Virus record (IMG/VR): IMGVR_UViG_3300031884_000097
Coordinates: 1 to 30,254 of that record
Origin: a virus
DNA length: 30,254 nt
Direction: 5' to 3' (one strand)
The number at the start of each line of letters is the position of its first letter. Position 1 is the stretch's first letter. The notes beneath the pieces are model-generated. The model did not search any database, had not been told where the DNA came from, and worked only from the letters and a program-made list of their open reading frames with translations. A program made the translations under genes and the position numbers. Shown here in pieces: positions 7,753 through 28,373 of the stretch.

Positions 7753-8367
7753 TTACGTCGTATATTGGCAGAACCAAGAGTCCCCTGTTGTAGCACCATA
7801 AACAGACACTTGATCTGTATGAACAATGCTACTGTCTTGCTGTAACCATTGACCGGGAGTTAATTTAAAACCGCTTGTGGTCGAAGGAACTGCCGCGCCG
7901 TAATTGTCGTTTGGATCGTTAAGTAACAACACATAAGGAGCGCAATCATAACCAGAGCCGGGGTTATCAATTACGATTGAAGAAATAGCGCCACCCGATA
8001 ACACGCAATGCGCAGTTGCCGTATTTGATGGTGCGTATTGATTGGGGTAGCCAAGGCCGAGATCACGACCATTAGCTATATTACCGCCACCGAGGAAATG
8101 CACAGATGGCGGATAGGTATAACCAAATCCAGCGTTTGTGACGGTGATCGCTGTTACAGCACCGCTGCTGACTGTAGCCGTGGCGCGAGCCCCGCCAAAC
8201 TCAAAATATAATGTGTCAGATGCTGACGTGTTTTGAATCCAAAAAGATGAGCGGGGTGCAGCACGAGGAAGAACCAATTGCGGCGTACCGCCTGTGGCTA
8301 TTTTTCCGTCTGCTCTATAAACAGGTATCAGAACCTGTTGTTCACCAAAACCAACTAAACGAGCCAT
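7753..8367 (-). CDS. Structural protein with GxGY repeats, fibre-proximal
   Basis: This 204-residue protein begins MARLVGFGEQQVLIPVYRAD. The N-terminal 60 residues form a beta region (RSSFWIQNTSASDTLYFEFG) seen in phage minor structural proteins. Two GxGY repeat units follow at about residues 65-95 (GAVTAITVTNAGFGYTYPPS) and 125-150 (GAISSIVIDNPGSGYDCAPY). They are the same type as in the genes at 18310-21081 and 22861-23946. AAGAGGA precedes the ATG; the stop is 11 bases before the fibre start. The likely role is a fibre-attachment or decoration protein; the exact position on the particle is unknown. Confidence 0.72.
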   Translation of the reverse strand: MARLVGFGEQQVLIPVYRADGKIATGGTPQLVLPRAAPRSSFWIQNTSASDTLYFEFGGARATATVSSGAVTAITVTNAGFGYTYPPSVHFLGGGNIANGRDLGLGYPNQYAPSNTATAHCVLSGGAISSIVIDNPGSGYDCAPYVLLLNDPNDNYGAAVPSTTSGFKLTPGQWLQQDSSIVHTDQVSVYGATTGDSWFCQYTT

Positions 8368-18309: not shown

Positions 18310-21081
18310 TTAGTACGAGGCTACAACGTCAGCATAACCCATAACTATATTCCCCACTGTGAAATCGGGGCTTGCTGACAAGAATCTTAATCCAGCCATC
18401 ACAAAACCCACGCCTTCAAGCGAAGACCCCCAAAACCCGTAATAAGGCGACGGAGATTGGAAATTCGGCTGAACAAGTGACACATTATATGTACCACTTT
18501 GTAGGCTAGGCTGGAAAGCGTTTTGTAAGGCAATTCCCGATACCGACAGTAAAAAATCACCTGTTATACCTGACAAGGCGCTCGTGTTATCGGTGGCTTG
18601 CATATAAACGGCGAGGGCTTGTTTCTGAATAAACATTTTGTCTGCGCCGTAAATCTTGGTGTCAAGTCGTTTTATTATGTTTGTTGAAGGCGCATAGAAC
18701 AACTGATACAATCCTGCCCCGTCCGTGCCCCAAGCCTTATATTCGCTGGAAATCTTTTGCGTTCCAATAAACGTCAAATTTCCTGATTGGCTGGCAATCG
18801 TCCAATCTTTTTCATTGTATAAAAGCATGACATTACGGGCTGTTCCTGTATCAGGATCAATCAATGTCAGATAATCGATATAATACTTTATGTTATATAT
18901 CGTGGCTGTTGCCGCTGAAGGCACAACACCGCCCGACTCAGGTGGAACAAAATTATTAAAGAGCTGAGTTAATTTGGTTGATATATTGGCGAGCGAGCCG
19001 CCATACACCGCAAAGATACCCATCTCATTCGAAATAACTATAGATTTACCAAAATCTTGAATTGAATCACGATATTTAAGACCTGCTTGCGGGTCTACGT
19101 TTTGGTAGTTGTATGTTGTTACTGTTGGTGTGCCGGACGTGCTGACGTTTGAGACAACTGATACCGATCCATCACCGAAGAAATAAAGATAACCAGAGGA
19201 TTGCCGCACGTTGACGTAACGTGTTTGCAAGAATGAATCGGTGTTGATCGAGCTGCCGCCACCATCCGATGTCGCAAAATCGTAAATAGAGCCGGGCGCA
19301 CTATACGACCATAAGTTGCCGGGCGGCGTTGTTGAATATTCTTGTACCGCAGGATTAACAATCCACACACGCGATAAATAAGTTTCCATAGCTGAACCAG
19401 ACACGCCGTAAGGCATGAGTGATACAGTTGCGTAAGCTGAATTGTTTGCTCCTGCACCTATTTCAATAGCAGGGGCTGTTGTGTAAAACTGACCTGTCGA
19501 TGACACAGTTACTGATGCAATAGATGTTGGCGAAAGTAAAACTGTACCGCCAGCTCCTGCTCCACCGCCACCAGAAATAATCAATTGGACTGTCTCTGTT
19601 ATATTTGAACCAGCGTCTGTAATTGAAACAGAGCCTACGGCATCACCAACTAAATTAGCTGTTGCCGTTGGTAATGTAGCGCCACTTCCGCCACCGACAA
19701 AGCTGACCGAAGGTGTTGACGTATAACCAGAACCGCCAGCTGTTATGTTGATAGCTGAAACTGATGTTGGGCTTAATATCGCTATACCCGTTGCACCAGC
19801 TCCGCCGCCGCCTTTAAATGTTAAAATAGGTGTTGACGTAAAACCGCTACCCCCGTCAATGACATTAACGGAAGCAACACCTGCTGGTGCCAGCACTGCT
19901 TGGGCTGTAGCACCAGTTCCTGTGCCTGTAATAGAAACTGACGGTGCGCTGGTGTAGCCTGAACCTGCATTAGTGACATCAACACCAGCTATTTTACCTT
20001 GACCGATAATCACAGCTGTTGCTGAAGCGCCTGTTCCCGGCCCTGAAAACGAAATTGTGGGTGGTGTGGTGTAACCTGTACCACCATTAACAATCGTAAT
20101 ACCAACAACAGCGCCGCCTGATACAGTTGCTGTCGCTGTTGCGCCTGAACCGCCGCCACCAGAAAATGAAACAGTAGGCGCTGTCGTATAACCTGTGCCA
20201 CCAACAAGGCTTGTTGTACCCGTCACACTACCCGTGCTTATGATGACTGTACCAGCAGCGCCCGAACCACCGCCGCCAGAAAAAGACACAGTAGCGGATG
20301 TATAACCAGAGCCTTGCGTTGTTATTGAAACGCCGCCGACCGAACCACTGGAGAGAACGGCTTCTAGCACCGCTGACGAATCAGACCCACCACCTGAAAA
20401 TTGTAATTGAACAACTTCGCCGGGAAGATAACCTGTTCCGGGGTTTGTGATGTTAATTTCAGCAATACCGCCGTTATTAACAAGAGAGCTAAAAGTCATT
20501 CCGCTACCGCTACCACCATAAGCTGTTATGGTTGGTGTGCTGGAATAAGAGAAACCGACCGAATCTATCATCACACCCTGCGGCGCGGCTGTGCCAGCGC
20601 CATAAAGAAGCGTGCCGTCCCATGCCCAATAATCATTTTCGGTATTGCGATTGCAAATCAACAGATAAATAGAACCCCATTGTTTGCAAAAGGGTAGGTA
20701 TCCGCTGGTTGCGCTATAAAACGTGCCAGCGGGGCCGATTGTCGTTGTGGCTAAGGATGCCATATCGAGTTGAACGGCTGAACCATCTGATAAAAATATC
20801 GCGCAATACTGGCTTGTTGCCAAAGTGTAAAACGAGAAATAGACGATCGTCAGGCCGGTTGGGGGTGTATAGAAAGACGGGCTTTGATCCCAAAGAGAAC
20901 GAAGACTTCCGTTACCAAGGCGAACAAAATTCTCGATCCATGTAAACTCATGGTCGTCAATCGCGTGCGGCGCATCTTGACGATTAACACCCTTGAAAGG
21001 GAAAGGTGAATAAACCTTAAAGCCGGGTGGAAGGCCCAGAGCTTGACCCGCTTTGGCGGAGATGTCAGGCGTTGTTGCCAC
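18310..21081 (-). CDS. Tail-hub / packaged-DNA-stabilisation-type protein with GxGY repeat insert (923 aa)
   Basis: The start codon is GTG (21081), with GAGGTGA six bases before it and a 17-base overlap with the upstream gene. Residues 1-170 contain FKGVNRQDAPHAIDDHEFTW, NFVRLGNGSLRSLWDQ and several beta strands. These are features I know from beta-propeller tail-hub proteins such as the P22 gp10 type. Residues about 175-555 are about ten repeats of 38-40 residues, each with G-S/T-G-Y-T-x-x-P-x-x-x-F-x-G-G-G. Propeller-like sequence resumes at about 566 (ETYLSRVWIVNPAVQEY, SAPGSIYDFATSDGGGS) and runs to the end. It probably plugs or closes the portal-connector tube. The insert is most likely surface exposed. 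Confidence 0.76.
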   Translation of the reverse strand: MATTPDISAKAGQALGLPPGFKVYSPFPFKGVNRQDAPHAIDDHEFTWIENFVRLGNGSLRSLWDQSPSFYTPPTGLTIVYFSFYTLATSQYCAIFLSDGSAVQLDMASLATTTIGPAGTFYSATSGYLPFCKQWGSIYLLICNRNTENDYWAWDGTLLYGAGTAAPQGVMIDSVGFSYSSTPTITAYGGSGSGMTFSSLVNNGGIAEINITNPGTGYLPGEVVQLQFSGGGSDSSAVLEAVLSSGSVGGVSITTQGSGYTSATVSFSGGGGSGAAGTVIISTGSVTGTTSLVGGTGYTTAPTVSFSGGGGSGATATATVSGGAVVGITIVNGGTGYTTPPTISFSGPGTGASATAVIIGQGKIAGVDVTNAGSGYTSAPSVSITGTGTGATAQAVLAPAGVASVNVIDGGSGFTSTPILTFKGGGGAGATGIAILSPTSVSAINITAGGSGYTSTPSVSFVGGGSGATLPTATANLVGDAVGSVSITDAGSNITETVQLIISGGGGAGAGGTVLLSPTSIASVTVSSTGQFYTTAPAIEIGAGANNSAYATVSLMPYGVSGSAMETYLSRVWIVNPAVQEYSTTPPGNLWSYSAPGSIYDFATSDGGGSSINTDSFLQTRYVNVRQSSGYLYFFGDGSVSVVSNVSTSGTPTVTTYNYQNVDPQAGLKYRDSIQDFGKSIVISNEMGIFAVYGGSLANISTKLTQLFNNFVPPESGGVVPSAATATIYNIKYYIDYLTLIDPDTGTARNVMLLYNEKDWTIASQSGNLTFIGTQKISSEYKAWGTDGAGLYQLFYAPSTNIIKRLDTKIYGADKMFIQKQALAVYMQATDNTSALSGITGDFLLSVSGIALQNAFQPSLQSGTYNVSLVQPNFQSPSPYYGFWGSSLEGVGFVMAGLRFLSASPDFTVGNIVMGYADVVASY
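19414..20559 (-). repeat. GxGY repeat array (about ten units of 38-40 codons)
   Basis: Unit starts are marked by FSYSSTP, GTGYLPG, GSGYTSA, GTGYTTA, GTGYTTP, GSGYTSA, GSGFTST, GSGYTST, GSN and QFYTTAP. They fall at about residues 178, 216, 258, 296, 336, 374, 412, 451, 491 and 530 of the hub protein. The middle units are the most alike; the outer ones are degenerate. Confidence 0.88.
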
Positions 21082-21867: not shown

Positions 21868-22785
21868 TTAGACGTTTGTATAATAATACGAAGGTGTTTT
21901 ACCGCGATCAACTGCAACACGTCCAACGCCAAGAATATCAGCAAAGCGATTTTCCATGACTTGTGCCTGAGCAAAACGCCCTGATGATTCGAAAGCGATT
22001 GCCGCTGCGCCGTATTTTAGAGCTTCTTGGAACGCGTCGGGGATGGCGTCAAAATCATTGTCTGTCACAAGATCGATCGGGGCTGCCGTCACATCAAGAT
22101 CTATCTCAAGATATTGAGAGGGGACAGGGAACATCCAGATCTCACCTTGTGGCCCGTCATTATAAACAGACCATACCGCTGGATAAGATGTGTTCAAAAC
22201 AGCATACGCACGGCAATAGGCTTGGAAATCATCCCAAGGCAACCAATCCAATGTAGGTTTGGTTGTGCCACCCCAATTCACGGCGCAGCCTATTGTGTCA
22301 TAGATATATGCAGTGCCCGCATATTGAGCTTTCAAGAAATTATTGAAGAACCCTTGATAAGGGTAACGCTCAACGCCGGGAATAGTCATGCACGAATTAG
22401 TCACCGCGCCGTAAGCCGAGGGAAACGGGCCATTGGGTGAATAATTGATCGGGTAATTATTGTTATAATTAAGAACGTTAAAATCATTATTGTAATCGGT
22501 GTTAAAATCACCGTTGTTGCCGGGGTAAGGGTATTGCGTATTTGAATTTGAAAATGCCCACGGCAAGGCACCGGGCTGCGCGGCTGTCGGAATTGCAGTA
22601 CCTGAAACAGCTGATGCGCCAAAAGCCGATTGACCAGAGATCAAACGACGTATGCACCCTGTTCTTTTGGCTGCGTTCCTGCGAGCCGTATTAACCCATC
22701 GAGTTAATTGGCCTTGAGATATGAACGTGTAGTTCTGATCGTTCAGCAGCGCCGACGTATCGTTGAGAAGCTGACTGAGTGACAT
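21868..22785 (-). CDS. Head-to-tail connector / gp4-like adaptor candidate (305 aa)
   Basis: The N-terminus MSLSQLLNDTSALLNDQNYT, then ISQGQLTRWVNTARRNAAKR and TGCIRRL, has the helix pattern L-x-x-W-V-N-x-A-R-x-x-x-A-x-R-T seen in phage connector proteins of the P22 gp4 type. Residues about 75-130 are a Tyr/Asn/Pro-rich insert (YPYPGNNGDFNTDYNNDFNV). The C-terminal third returns to helices (DAIPDAFQEALKYGAAAIAF, QAQVMENRFADIL), typical of adaptor proteins. It is the first gene after the terminator that closes the coat operon. The family call rests on motifs and gene order; the Asn/Tyr-rich insert is unusual. Confidence 0.66.
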   Translation of the reverse strand: MSLSQLLNDTSALLNDQNYTFISQGQLTRWVNTARRNAAKRTGCIRRLISGQSAFGASAVSGTAIPTAAQPGALPWAFSNSNTQYPYPGNNGDFNTDYNNDFNVLNYNNNYPINYSPNGPFPSAYGAVTNSCMTIPGVERYPYQGFFNNFLKAQYAGTAYIYDTIGCAVNWGGTTKPTLDWLPWDDFQAYCRAYAVLNTSYPAVWSVYNDGPQGEIWMFPVPSQYLEIDLDVTAAPIDLVTDNDFDAIPDAFQEALKYGAAAIAFESSGRFAQAQVMENRFADILGVGRVAVDRGKTPSYYYTNV

Positions 22786-22860: not shown

Positions 22861-23946
22861 TTAGACCTGAGTCAAATAGTTGACGTCAGACTGACCACCC
22901 ATCGTGAATGTCACGACTGGAGCTGTTGTCACAACAGAAGCTGTTGGGATCACAACTGGTGTAGGTGATGAAGTATAGACACCGCCATCGTAAATCACTG
23001 CGCCAGTAGCAGTGATACCACCGCTGGAAATTGGAGCCTTGATGTTAGCGTTACGAGTCTTAACCAAACCAGACTGAGTATATGTGTTGGTGTAAGCAGC
23101 GGCTGTTGTTGGGAACGCGTCTTCTGCTGTGATCTGAGCGATCGAACCAGAAAGACCAGCACCTGCTGTACCAGCTGCATAAGCTGTGATTGACCAGTTC
23201 ATGATAGCTGTTGCTGTCGCGCCTGAACCGCCGCCACCTGCGAAGGAGATGGAAGGAACAGATGTCTGACCGCCCTGACCGTGATCGAGGCAGAGAAGCG
23301 CAGTAACAGTACCAGCACCTGTGAGAACACAAGTTGCAGCAGCGTTGTAACCTTGTGTCACGCCGTTCACGCCTTCGCGTGGGTCGTTGATGAACACAAT
23401 AGTTGGAGCTGAAGCATAACCAGCGCCTTGGTTTGTGACAGTAACTGAAGACACTGCACTACCTGAGAGTGTAGCATAACCAGTTGCTTGCACACCGCCA
23501 GCTGGAGGAGCTGCGAACTGTACGATTGGGGGATAGGTGTAGTTTGAACCACCATTGGTGACAGTAACAGTCGTGCTGACTGCACCGCCGACAACGGCTT
23601 TCCAAATTGAACCTGTTGTACCAGCCGAAACTGTTGGTGCTGAAGTGTAGCCAGACCCTGCTGCTGTGAGCAGAGCGCCAACAACTGCGCCAGTTTGGTT
23701 AGCCAAACGATAGTTCACACCATCTGAATAAATGTAACGAACGCCACCTTGGTGATCGCCGTTACCGACGTTGCGCCAAATCCCTGTGATTGGATCATAT
23801 TGCTGAACAGTGGTGTAAAGACCAGTGTTCACCATATACCAGCCGGCAGGTGAGATCAGCTGGACTTGTCCAGACTGAAGATTGATGACGTTAGTGGCTA
23901 CGCCCTTAAGGGAAGGAAGTACGCCTGAACCAGAAAACAGACCCAT
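22861..23946 (-). CDS. GxGY-repeat structural protein next to coat gene (capsid decoration candidate)
   Basis: This 361-residue protein begins MGLFSGSGVLPSLKGVATNV, with AAGGAG six bases before the ATG. Residues 1-85 are a unique N-terminal domain (LISPAGWYMVNTGLYTTVQQ, DPITGIWRNVGNG) of a kind I know from proteins encoded right after phage coat genes. GxGY repeat units follow at about residues 97, 133, 175 and 225 (GSGYTSAPTVS, NYTYPPIVQF, GAGYASAPTIVF, TSVPSISFAGGGG). A weaker fifth unit near the C-terminus is GGVYTSSPTP. It sits 11 bases after the coat stop, in the same transcript and before a terminator, so high expression is likely. A capsid surface or vertex decoration protein is the best reading. 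Confidence 0.72.
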   Translation of the reverse strand: MGLFSGSGVLPSLKGVATNVINLQSGQVQLISPAGWYMVNTGLYTTVQQYDPITGIWRNVGNGDHQGGVRYIYSDGVNYRLANQTGAVVGALLTAAGSGYTSAPTVSAGTTGSIWKAVVGGAVSTTVTVTNGGSNYTYPPIVQFAAPPAGGVQATGYATLSGSAVSSVTVTNQGAGYASAPTIVFINDPREGVNGVTQGYNAAATCVLTGAGTVTALLCLDHGQGGQTSVPSISFAGGGGSGATATAIMNWSITAYAAGTAGAGLSGSIAQITAEDAFPTTAAAYTNTYTQSGLVKTRNANIKAPISSGGITATGAVIYDGGVYTSSPTPVVIPTASVVTTAPVVTFTMGGQSDVNYLTQV

Positions 23947-23957
23947 AGGTCACTCCT

Positions 23958-25028
23958 TTAGATTACGGCGGGCGAAGTGCCCGGAACGTTAGGCCACGCA
24001 GCGCCGGTGATGCCTGTGATCTGAGCGCCAGATGAGGGTTTCGCGCAGACGAGGTCGGCTGCCGAAATGAGAACACCGATGTCAGAAATCTGACCAACTG
24101 GAATCTGGCTTTCGAAGCCAGAGAACGTCATTGGTGCATATTCAGACATATACAAGCCGGTGTAACGTGAGTTCACCACGATGCAAGTGCCGAGTGGGCA
24201 GAATGGATCGGGGAAGATTGGTGTATCGAGAACGCGGATAGCGCGGAAACCAGCGTTTACGGCATCGTCCTTCTCGTAAATTGACCGAGGCTTCGTTGTG
24301 AACATTTCGAGTGACATGAAGTCAGACATGAGTTCTGCCCAGTTAGCTGGGTTCATCACTGCATAGTCAGGGGCTTCACCACCTGCGCCTGATTGGATAC
24401 GGGTCAATAATTGAGCCATACCAACGCGGGTTGTAGCTGCCGCACCGGTATTCGTAATCAGCTGACCTGACCAGAACGAGCCGGGAGTACGCGAAATGCC
24501 GCCGTATGAAGGAACGTTTGTACCATCATCATAGGCTTGTGTCAGTGAATCCCACACCTGCGTGTTGGCGTAGTTGTTTGAATAAAGAGCCTGTGCGTAG
24601 GCTTGTTTAATCACAACAGCTGCGTCTGACATCACTGCGCGGAGTTTCGGAATAACAACTTCAGATGACTGAATAATTGCTTCCATTCCGAAGAAGCCAA
24701 CAGGAACCATACCGAGCTTGAGCGAGAACTGAGCGTTCTGGATCGCGGCCTGATCTGTAGGCATCGGGAAGTCGCCAGCGAATGAGCCCCAGTTGAAGGA
24801 GACGAAAGACGACCCTTGCACTGGAACTGTGATCTGGCTGACACCGCCTCGCGCAGCTTTGGCGTTCGACATGAACAAGCTGAGAAGAGGATGTGATTGA
24901 TAAATCTGTACATAGACGGAAGGCAAGAAAGCACGCCGCGTAAGGGCGGCGAGCTGTGCGCCAAGCGCGCCTGAAGGGGTAATACCACTTCCGGTCAGCG
25001 TGGCTACTGGTGCGGTTGGTAGAGCCAT
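23958..25028 (-). CDS. Major capsid (coat) protein
   Basis: This 356-residue protein begins MALPTAPVATLTGSGITPSG, with AAAGGA before the ATG. Its position directly after a scaffold-like gene, its size, and segments such as FVSFNWGSFAGDFPMPTDQA, VVIKQAYAQALYSNN and a C-terminal QISDIGVLISAADLVCAKPS fit an HK97-fold coat protein. The region YAVMNPANWAELMSDFMSLE resembles the A-domain part where many coat proteins have (V/M)-x-N-P-x-x-W. No cleaved N-terminal prohead domain or protease gene is present, consistent with a separate scaffold. Codon use looks more biased than in neighbours, as expected for the most abundant virion protein (impression, not counted). Confidence 0.85.
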   Translation of the reverse strand: MALPTAPVATLTGSGITPSGALGAQLAALTRRAFLPSVYVQIYQSHPLLSLFMSNAKAARGGVSQITVPVQGSSFVSFNWGSFAGDFPMPTDQAAIQNAQFSLKLGMVPVGFFGMEAIIQSSEVVIPKLRAVMSDAAVVIKQAYAQALYSNNYANTQVWDSLTQAYDDGTNVPSYGGISRTPGSFWSGQLITNTGAAATTRVGMAQLLTRIQSGAGGEAPDYAVMNPANWAELMSDFMSLEMFTTKPRSIYEKDDAVNAGFRAIRVLDTPIFPDPFCPLGTCIVVNSRYTGLYMSEYAPMTFSGFESQIPVGQISDIGVLISAADLVCAKPSSGAQITGITGAAWPNVPGTSPAVI

Positions 25029-26393: not shown

Positions 26394-26459
26394 TTACTTA
26401 CGCATACCGCGCTTGTGGGACTTTTTACCGCGCTTTTCGCATGTGTCGTTAAAAGTCAT
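26394..26459 (-). CDS. Mini-ORF encoding a 21-residue basic peptide
   Basis: Translation gives MTFNDTCEKRGKKSHKRGM and then RK and a TAA stop. AGGAG lies six to seven bases before the ATG, a near-ideal ribosome-binding site, which is the main reason to believe it. It carries eight Lys/Arg residues, one His and one Cys. It is the first frame after the minus promoter, about 50 bases from the predicted transcription start. The C-terminus resembles that of the 13-residue peptide (xRK followed by TAA). It may be a small nucleic-acid-binding virion peptide or a translated leader. Confidence 0.5.
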   Translation of the reverse strand: MTFNDTCEKRGKKSHKRGMRK

Positions 26460-26514
26460 TTTAAACTCCTATTGCTGGGAACGTCGAGAGAGCTTACCAT
26501 CTCAACACCACAAA

Positions 26515-26544
26515 AGATTACGTTGTATATTGAACGCTTGTCAA
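26515..26544 (-). promoter_or_regulatory. Sigma70-type promoter for the head operon
   Basis: On the minus strand a consensus -35 box TTGACA (26544-26539) is followed after 18 bases by TAATCT (26520-26515), a weak -10. It lies about 55 bases before the first mini-ORF and overlaps the plus promoter of the portal gene. Confidence 0.5.
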
Positions 26545-26552
26545 TATATAAA
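26523..26552 (+). promoter_or_regulatory. Sigma70-type promoter for the portal gene
   Basis: TTGTAT (26523-26528), an 18-base spacer and TATAAA (26547-26552) form a reasonable promoter. The start of transcription would be near 26560, leaving a short leader before the portal ATG at 26595. It interleaves with the minus promoter, so the two polymerases cannot bind at the same time. Confidence 0.5.
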
Positions 26553-26594
26553 TCTGAAAAGTTGTGCGTTATCAAAACGATAGGATGGGATGAC

Positions 26595-28373
26595 ATGCAC
26601 ATACCAAAAAGAGACCTTGAATCATTCGCCCGAAATCTAGCGAATATTTGCATGTCTTCTAGGCAAGCCAGACAAAATCGTGGCGCATTTTTCGAGACTT
26701 ACGCAAATTCTGGATCAGCCGATGCGTCAGCTCCGGCGATGTTTAATAAGACTTACGCCTCGCTCGATGATCTTGAGTCGCTGCTTTTTTCACCCGTCTC
26801 TTTACGCTTTGCGATCACAGACCCCGACATTCCAAACATCGTCAATGAATCAAAAGGTCGTGTCGCGGCGGCGCGAATCAGAAAGATTTGCCGGCAGACT
26901 GATTCGGACAATTTGATTTCGCAAGCCGTTGGTATTGCCTTGCGTAAAGGTCTGGGCCTCACGAAAGCAAATGTCGTCAACAAAGAATTTTCGTGTCAAC
27001 TTGTTCAACCAGAAAACTTCGGTGTTTTGCATGAGAATTACACAAAGCTCGATGCAGACATGGAAGCCTTCAACCATCGGATGCTGATTTCACCTGCTCA
27101 ATTCCGCAACCTTGTAAGAGGTCGCCCTGATGAGTCAGACCTGAAAGAACGCGCCAAAGCCTATATGCAAAGCTCAAAAGGCAGTCTGTCGGATGCTTCT
27201 GGCACAGCCATGAATATCGTCACTGGCGGTCTTTATCCTTTCCAAGCAGGTGGTGCGGGTTTGCCAAATCAAAGCCGTGGTATTGTTGACTGGATGTCAC
27301 AGCCTCGCGCCAGCGTCGATCCAGCTGTTGAGTCCTCGATGCTGGAGATGGATGAACTCTGGGTCTGGGATGATGCCCGTGGCGATTGGGCGACATTTCA
27401 GATCATCGGGGATAACATCCTCATCAACGGCAAATATCAGATAACCAGTGCTTTTTCATATAATACGCACACCAAGCAGACTGACGACGTTCTTAGGGGT
27501 AGTCACCCTTTCAACATGTTCTGCGCCAACCCCGTACCTGATTATTTCTGGGGTGCGTCTGAAATCACCCGTCTTGTCCTGCTTCAGGAAGCCATCAATT
27601 CGCGCATCACAGGCATCAATAAGATGCTTCGCAAACAAGAAGAACCTGCAACCAAATTTGTGGGCTCGACAGGTGTCAACCAGCAAGCCTTATCCCGCTT
27701 TAACAAGCCGGGCGGGTATTGGACTGATTCAAACCCAAACGCCAAGATCGAGCGTGACAACGTCCAAATCCCTCAAGCTCTCTGGGAATCGCTGCACGAA
27801 TATGAGCGTATGTTTGACGAGATGATGGGCTTACCGCCCATCGCCAAAGGTCAGGGCGAGGCAGGTGTTAGATCAGCCCAGCACGCTGAAACACTTGTGC
27901 GCATGTTCTCACCACGCTTTAAGGACCGTGCCCTCTTGATCGAGCGTGACGTTGAAAAATTCGGTGCACTTATGCTCGATCTCGCCCGCGCACACGTCGA
28001 CAATAAGATGATCGCGTGGGTGCCAAAAGAGGCAGCGGGTTTTGAAGATTCATCAGCTCCCGGTGAGGAAAAGATTTTAATCCCACCTGCCAAAGGTCTT
28101 GTGCCCGTCACATTTACCTTTGCTGATCTACCTGATGACGTCTCGCTCACTGTTGATTCACACTCTTCATCACCAGCGTTCTCACAAGACGCCAAAGAGC
28201 TTGCCTTCAACTTGCAACGCATCGGCGCTATGTCACCAGCCGAGTTGGTGGACAAGGTCGATGTCAGCGATCCAGACGAACTTCGCGCTGGTATTATGCG
28301 CCGCGAAATCGCTCGCGCCGAAGCAGCGGAAAAAGAGCAAGAACTTAAAGCTCAAACACATAAGAAAAAATAA
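26595..28373 (+). CDS. Portal protein (only gene on the plus strand)
   Basis: The frame is open from 26415, but I start at the ATG at 26595 (MHIPKRDLESFARNLANICM). It has AGGATGGGA just before it and lies downstream of a promoter. The 592-residue length fits a portal. Recognisable parts are PFNMFCANPVPDYFWGASEI, then LVLLQEAINSRITGINKMLR with KQEEP (about residues 330-355), the typical portal stem and clip region. Later come GQGEAGVRSAQHAETLVRMF and FKDRALLIERDVEKFGALML, which I know from podovirus-type portals. The C-terminus is Glu/Lys rich. It forms the dodecameric DNA channel and docks the terminase. Its strand is opposite to every other gene here, and its stop codon lies inside the shared terminator. 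Confidence 0.88.
   Translation: MHIPKRDLESFARNLANICMSSRQARQNRGAFFETYANSGSADASAPAMFNKTYASLDDLESLLFSPVSLRFAITDPDIPNIVNESKGRVAAARIRKICRQTDSDNLISQAVGIALRKGLGLTKANVVNKEFSCQLVQPENFGVLHENYTKLDADMEAFNHRMLISPAQFRNLVRGRPDESDLKERAKAYMQSSKGSLSDASGTAMNIVTGGLYPFQAGGAGLPNQSRGIVDWMSQPRASVDPAVESSMLEMDELWVWDDARGDWATFQIIGDNILINGKYQITSAFSYNTHTKQTDDVLRGSHPFNMFCANPVPDYFWGASEITRLVLLQEAINSRITGINKMLRKQEEPATKFVGSTGVNQQALSRFNKPGGYWTDSNPNAKIERDNVQIPQALWESLHEYERMFDEMMGLPPIAKGQGEAGVRSAQHAETLVRMFSPRFKDRALLIERDVEKFGALMLDLARAHVDNKMIAWVPKEAAGFEDSSAPGEEKILIPPAKGLVPVTFTFADLPDDVSLTVDSHSSSPAFSQDAKELAFNLQRIGAMSPAELVDKVDVSDPDELRAGIMRREIARAEAAEKEQELKAQTHKKK

Follow-up and report, generated by a model that had tools for sequence, protein, structure and literature searches.

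The tail hub gene and its GxGY array

The window, by which we mean the entire 30,254-nucleotide stretch of viral DNA that was analyzed, carries on its minus strand a gene for a predicted tail hub or nozzle protein, the two flanks of which are separated by an array of repeated units with a GxGY motif. The gene and its parts are as follows.

18310..21081, minus strand: predicted tail hub or nozzle protein, 923 aa, GTG start (open reading frame, model with pLDDT 81.8, fold matches)
20587..21081, minus strand: N-terminal hub flank, residues 1-165, predicted platform strand and blades 1-2 (DSSP strand count on the model)
19405..20586, minus strand: GxGY array, residues 166-559, ten units, probably forming five two-unit domains (unit profiles)
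20341..20586, minus strand: units 1-2, residues 166-205 and 206-247 (unit profile)
20110..20340, minus strand: units 3-4, residues 248-285 and 286-324 (unit profile)
19879..20109, minus strand: units 5-6, residues 325-362 and 364-401 (unit profile)
19639..19878, minus strand: units 7-8, residues 402-440 and 441-481 (unit profile; modeled as a fragment with units 9-10)
19405..19638, minus strand: units 9-10, residues 482-520 and 521-559 (unit profile; fragment model)
18313..19404, minus strand: C-terminal hub flank, residues 560-923, predicted blades 3-7 and platform (model, fold matches)

Searching the hub with a unit profile gave exactly ten contiguous GxGY units, each 38-42 aa long, across residues 166-559. 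Because the training set of this first profile included the window's own hub, a second was built from 379 units, all from hubs outside the window's clade, and it recovered the same ten units with scores of 15.7-42.1 bits; none of 200 shuffles of the array contained a unit above 5.9 bits. The ten-unit array is real, as this independent profile confirms for the repeat array of the original prediction, and its DNA limits (19405-20586) are slightly wider than the 19414-20559 given there. The conserved Gly-Tyr and Pro positions also hold as first described, except that the Gly-Tyr motif is degenerate in units 8 and 10 and reads GFSY in unit 1. Tandem Repeats Finder called no repeats in the array DNA, giving no sign of a recent tandem duplication at the DNA level, and the copies are deeply diverged, or old, at that level.

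Flanks resembling podovirus tail hubs

Pfam had no match for the hub or 22 of its relatives and NCBIfam had none for the hub, so its identity comes only from predicted fold and gene order; a search of the PDB by sequence likewise found no relatives of the hub or the array. An AlphaFold2 model computed on a 23-row alignment (pLDDT 81.8, pTM 0.72) scored mostly above 85 in the flanks but only 51-89 in the array. Its fold matches by Foldseek and VIA were tail hub or nozzle proteins, with VIA Z scores of 28.6 to Pa223 (460 residues, 3.0 A), 26.5 to the crAss001 muzzle, 26.0 to SU10 gp17, 25.8 to VP1, 23.9 to P22 gp10 (421 residues, 3.4 A) and 19.5 to T7 gp12. Overall these matches have Z 19-29 over 391-480 residues at 2.9-3.8 A, and each alignment runs from about residue 20 to about residue 920 of the model, that is, over both flanks. 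A DSSP strand count on the model gives two blades before the array and five after it. The flanks are thus predicted to form a platform and seven-bladed propeller of the P22 gp10/T7 gp12/SU10 gp17 type, in agreement with the earlier view of both as one P22-gp10-type hub domain. The P22 gp10, Pa223 and VP1 hubs share this core fold but have no array or long insert. As for gene order, a Pfam match identifies an adaptor gene just upstream of the hub gene, two small genes away.

21868..22785, minus strand: head-tail adaptor, SU10_adaptor family (PF24175)

An optional insertion at one site

Profiles of both hub flanks retrieved 155 hubs that have both, and the N-terminal flank is conserved in all of these homologues; between the flanks lie inserts of 4-398 aa. 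Five hubs (L020, L021, L105, L108 and L110) have no units at all, so the array is not universal, and the original claim that hubs of this class do not need such an insert is borne out. The flanks are complete in these zero-unit homologues, which rules out a derivation of the repeats from propeller blades; nor do the repeats form blades in the predicted structure of the full protein. By sequence comparison, the array is an insertion at one conserved and optional site. The hub of L018 (3314-5077) has an unrelated 84-aa insert at the same place, and the blade opening therefore seems to accept different modules.

By strand count on the model, this site would lie between blades 2 and 3. In SU10 gp17, the propeller gives off four Ig-like nozzle domains at the junction of blades 2 and 3; these make up the blunt tail tip and, on infection, straighten to a 28-nm nozzle (PMC9509320). 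The IG1 domain of crAss001 (residues 163-292) lies between the same two blades (PMC10172136), starting at residue 163 where the array here starts at residue 166. The nozzle tip of T7 emerges from a blade 3 loop (PMC6702177). Since the opening between blades 2 and 3 leads to distal nozzle or IG domains in SU10 and crAss001, an extension of the tail tip is more likely here, and the side spike or fiber contact proposed at first is less well supported.

Even unit numbers among homologues

In 152 homologues, insert lengths are quantized and correspond to 0, 2, 4, 6, 8 or 10 units, with one ambiguous case (L045) that resembles six units plus a truncated one; the gaps at 25-73, 93-121, 123-144, 179-241, 271-306 and 317-382 aa are empty. 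This quantization is a new result of the present analysis. After removal of near-duplicates, automatic unit counts were 0, 2, 4, 6, 8 or 10 in 93 of 101 hubs, and the eight with odd counts nonetheless have insert lengths in the even classes. Odd-count inserts that we inspected (L025, L061, L113, L115, L117, L121 and L140) all resolve to even numbers; in L061, a foreign segment interrupts the two units.

A tree built by quick search from the flank columns of 94 hubs requires about 22 changes of domain number (possibly one fewer, as L061 was scored as two domains), so the even rule does not stem from a single ancestral event. By rough arithmetic, about 22 parity-preserving changes would have a chance of about 2e-7 if one- and two-unit steps were equally likely. 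On this tree, the three relatives closest to the window have ten units each, and the zero-unit L020 adjoins L022. Where the units gained or lost between close relatives could be identified, almost all cases involved two neighboring units. The register differs between clades: in the L095-L100 group, which belongs to another clade than the window, 8-unit hubs lack precisely units 5 and 6 of their 10-unit relatives, whereas in other clades four- and six-unit hubs differ by units 2-3. Loss of pairs spares the first and the last unit. We propose that the length of the array evolves in steps of two units, by gain or by loss.

A predicted two-unit domain

The quantization in two-unit steps makes it likely that the domain consists of two units. 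In the full hub model DSSP assigns three strands to each unit. Units 7-10 modeled by themselves (pLDDT 82.9), with a confident core in units 8-9 (pLDDT 91-97), have a strand pattern with a two-unit period, in which 21-residue strands cross the 7|8 and 9|10 boundaries and a tight turn lies at 8|9. BFVD entries matching this model align with it over 76-78 columns (1.3-1.7 A), as much as one pair spans; among the better matches, two have a P22 gp10-like annotation. The folding module is therefore likely to be a beta-sandwich-like pair of units of about 78 aa. As a point against this reading, units of the same parity were not significantly more alike than units of opposite parity (p 0.24), and alternating odd and even sequence types were rejected as a candidate on that value.

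The array had originally been suggested to be a beta-solenoid. One unit per rung of a side spike would suit the regular period of about 39 aa and the three strands per unit; coils could grow or shrink by single rungs, yet the unit number is even throughout, and the strands of the units 7-10 model repeat every two units. We consider a solenoid very improbable, the even numbers and the prediction favoring two-unit domains.

The PDB fold search with the units 7-10 model gave no convincing match and no solenoid stood out; the best matches were Ig domains, with a VIA Z of only 3.1, and carbohydrate-binding folds were among the weak ones. We do not take such weak matches to a predicted model as evidence for a new fold. 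Some of them, over model residues 40-114, use units 8-9. Others span 2-161 but align no more than about 80 residues, seemingly those of units 7 and 10, so the outer units of the model may be able to pair with each other. These matches, together with the retained end units, hint at an out-and-back arrangement, which we regard as tentative and on balance rather doubtful: the first unit would pair with the last and the inner ones across a hairpin, so that the array would run out from the propeller and back to it as a straight rod made of half-domains, which every further pair would extend by one step. If true, the unit number would be a genetic ruler of tail-tip length, and the restriction to even numbers would be explained.

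Spread of the GxGY unit

The unit profile identified two further carriers of GxGY units in the window, both with even counts.

22861..23946, minus strand: protein directly after the major capsid gene, four GxGY units, residues 88-251
7753..8367, minus strand: small tail-region protein, two GxGY units, residues about 71-166, in a phrog_22789-like domain

The counterpart of the first of these is present in L009 as two tandem copies. The adaptor of the window (21868-22785) has no GxGY units, whereas relatives of this adaptor have one two-unit insert at residues of about 56-137. More widely, the unit matches PHROG families of head, connector, tail and baseplate proteins. No Pfam or NCBIfam model matches it, and a literature search on the repeat motif found nothing on a GxGY repeat. 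BLAST of a consensus peptide of two units against phages gave no hits, probably on account of low-complexity filtering. A scan of bacterial genomes found hub relatives on only five contigs, which belong to metagenome-assembled genomes of mixed taxa.

In T4-like cyanophages, structural proteins (phrog_701, phrog_708, phrog_460 and others) share the unit with E-values down to 5.8e-50, with runs of up to six units in a large protein encoded next to gp6; these phages have contractile tails, and the array there is in a giant baseplate-region protein rather than a podovirus hub. Unit counts in these cyanophage giants were too noisy to judge parity. Since head proteins and further virion proteins also carry the GxGY domain, what it does in all of them may be something other than nozzle extension.

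With the hub array, a repeat that is very common in phages but has no name is connected with a known component, the nozzle insertion that podovirus hubs carry. Through the rule of even numbers, the sequence by itself indicates the folding module, and this could guide the naming of the domain in the many head, baseplate and fiber proteins that have it.

Proposed role of the array

We infer that the array is probably an optional nozzle insertion of paired units between blades 2 and 3, which would lengthen the distal tail tip of a hexameric podovirus hub. Ten units would give five domains per chain, and, if the hub is hexameric as its relatives are, the ring would place thirty of them around the tail tip. 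There the domains would most likely make the distal tail tube and tip longer and determine their shape, as the nozzle domains of SU10 gp17 do, with the length of the nozzle set in steps of two units.

The closest comparison is with the SU10 nozzle protein gp17 (PDB 7z47/7z4f; PMC9509320), which shares the hub fold (Z 25-26), a nearby adaptor gene of the same Pfam family and a large multi-domain beta insertion at the opening between blades 2 and 3, as placed here by strand count. SU10 has four Ig-like nozzle domains, whereas the two-unit GxGY domains number from zero to five between relatives, and the likeness between the two kinds of domain is positional, the best Ig fold match having a Z of 3.1. 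The crAss001 muzzle gp44 (PDB 7qol; PMC10172136) also shares the hub fold (Z 26.5) but has one Ig-like domain at this opening, a second one and a crass fold in blade 3, and no GxGY array.

The array might instead be chiefly an adhesin, presented by the hub, in which the paired domains bind host glycans with an avidity that rises with domain number. Its predicted fold is weakly similar to carbohydrate-binding modules and phage receptor-binding pieces, though these matches (E > 0.5 or Z < 3.2) are at noise level and no binding-site signature is evident. The module also occurs in exposed virion proteins, tail-fiber entries and baseplate proteins of T4-like cyanophages, and the same role has been proposed for BACON repeat arrays in the tails of crAss-like phages (PMC6949934). 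Those arrays resemble the present one as tandem, tail-associated beta domains whose number changes by internal duplication, but BACON is a different domain that expands by single domains, in fiber-like proteins and not in a hub propeller. Among close relatives, some hubs still lack the domain altogether (L020 beside L022), so it is not essential, and we judge a chiefly adhesive role unlikely.

Less likely still, the pair domain may be mobile and nearly neutral, a module tolerated in exposed loops of virion proteins while its copy number drifts. Several virion proteins of this lineage that are unrelated to one another carry it, as do many PHROGs, and copy number changes frequently, even between near relatives. 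The hub site is always the same one, however, the array has no recent tandem copies in its diverged DNA, and clades keep their number, as the shared ten units of the window and its nearest relatives illustrate. If the array is a nozzle insertion, the natural series of 0, 1, 2, 3, 4 and 5 domains at one hub site makes the relation of nozzle length to domain number and host envelope directly testable.

Neighboring genes

Relatives that share 94-100% identity in the major capsid protein (23958-25028, minus strand) have only 60-82% identity in their hubs, indicating that the tail tip evolves much faster than the capsid. Inside the tail module lies a gene for a GNAT acetyltransferase (PF00583; 17294-17749, minus strand). 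The portal gene (26415-28373, plus strand), the product of which is 28% identical to an annotated portal, lies on the other strand from the remaining genes of the structural module. In each of the six relatives in which it is present, it is likewise opposite to the capsid gene, so the arrangement is conserved and does not reflect faulty assembly; L004 and L005, which are more distant, have the portal on the common strand. Among the portal matches, G001 and G006 each have one internal TGA stop, and G002 has three stops.
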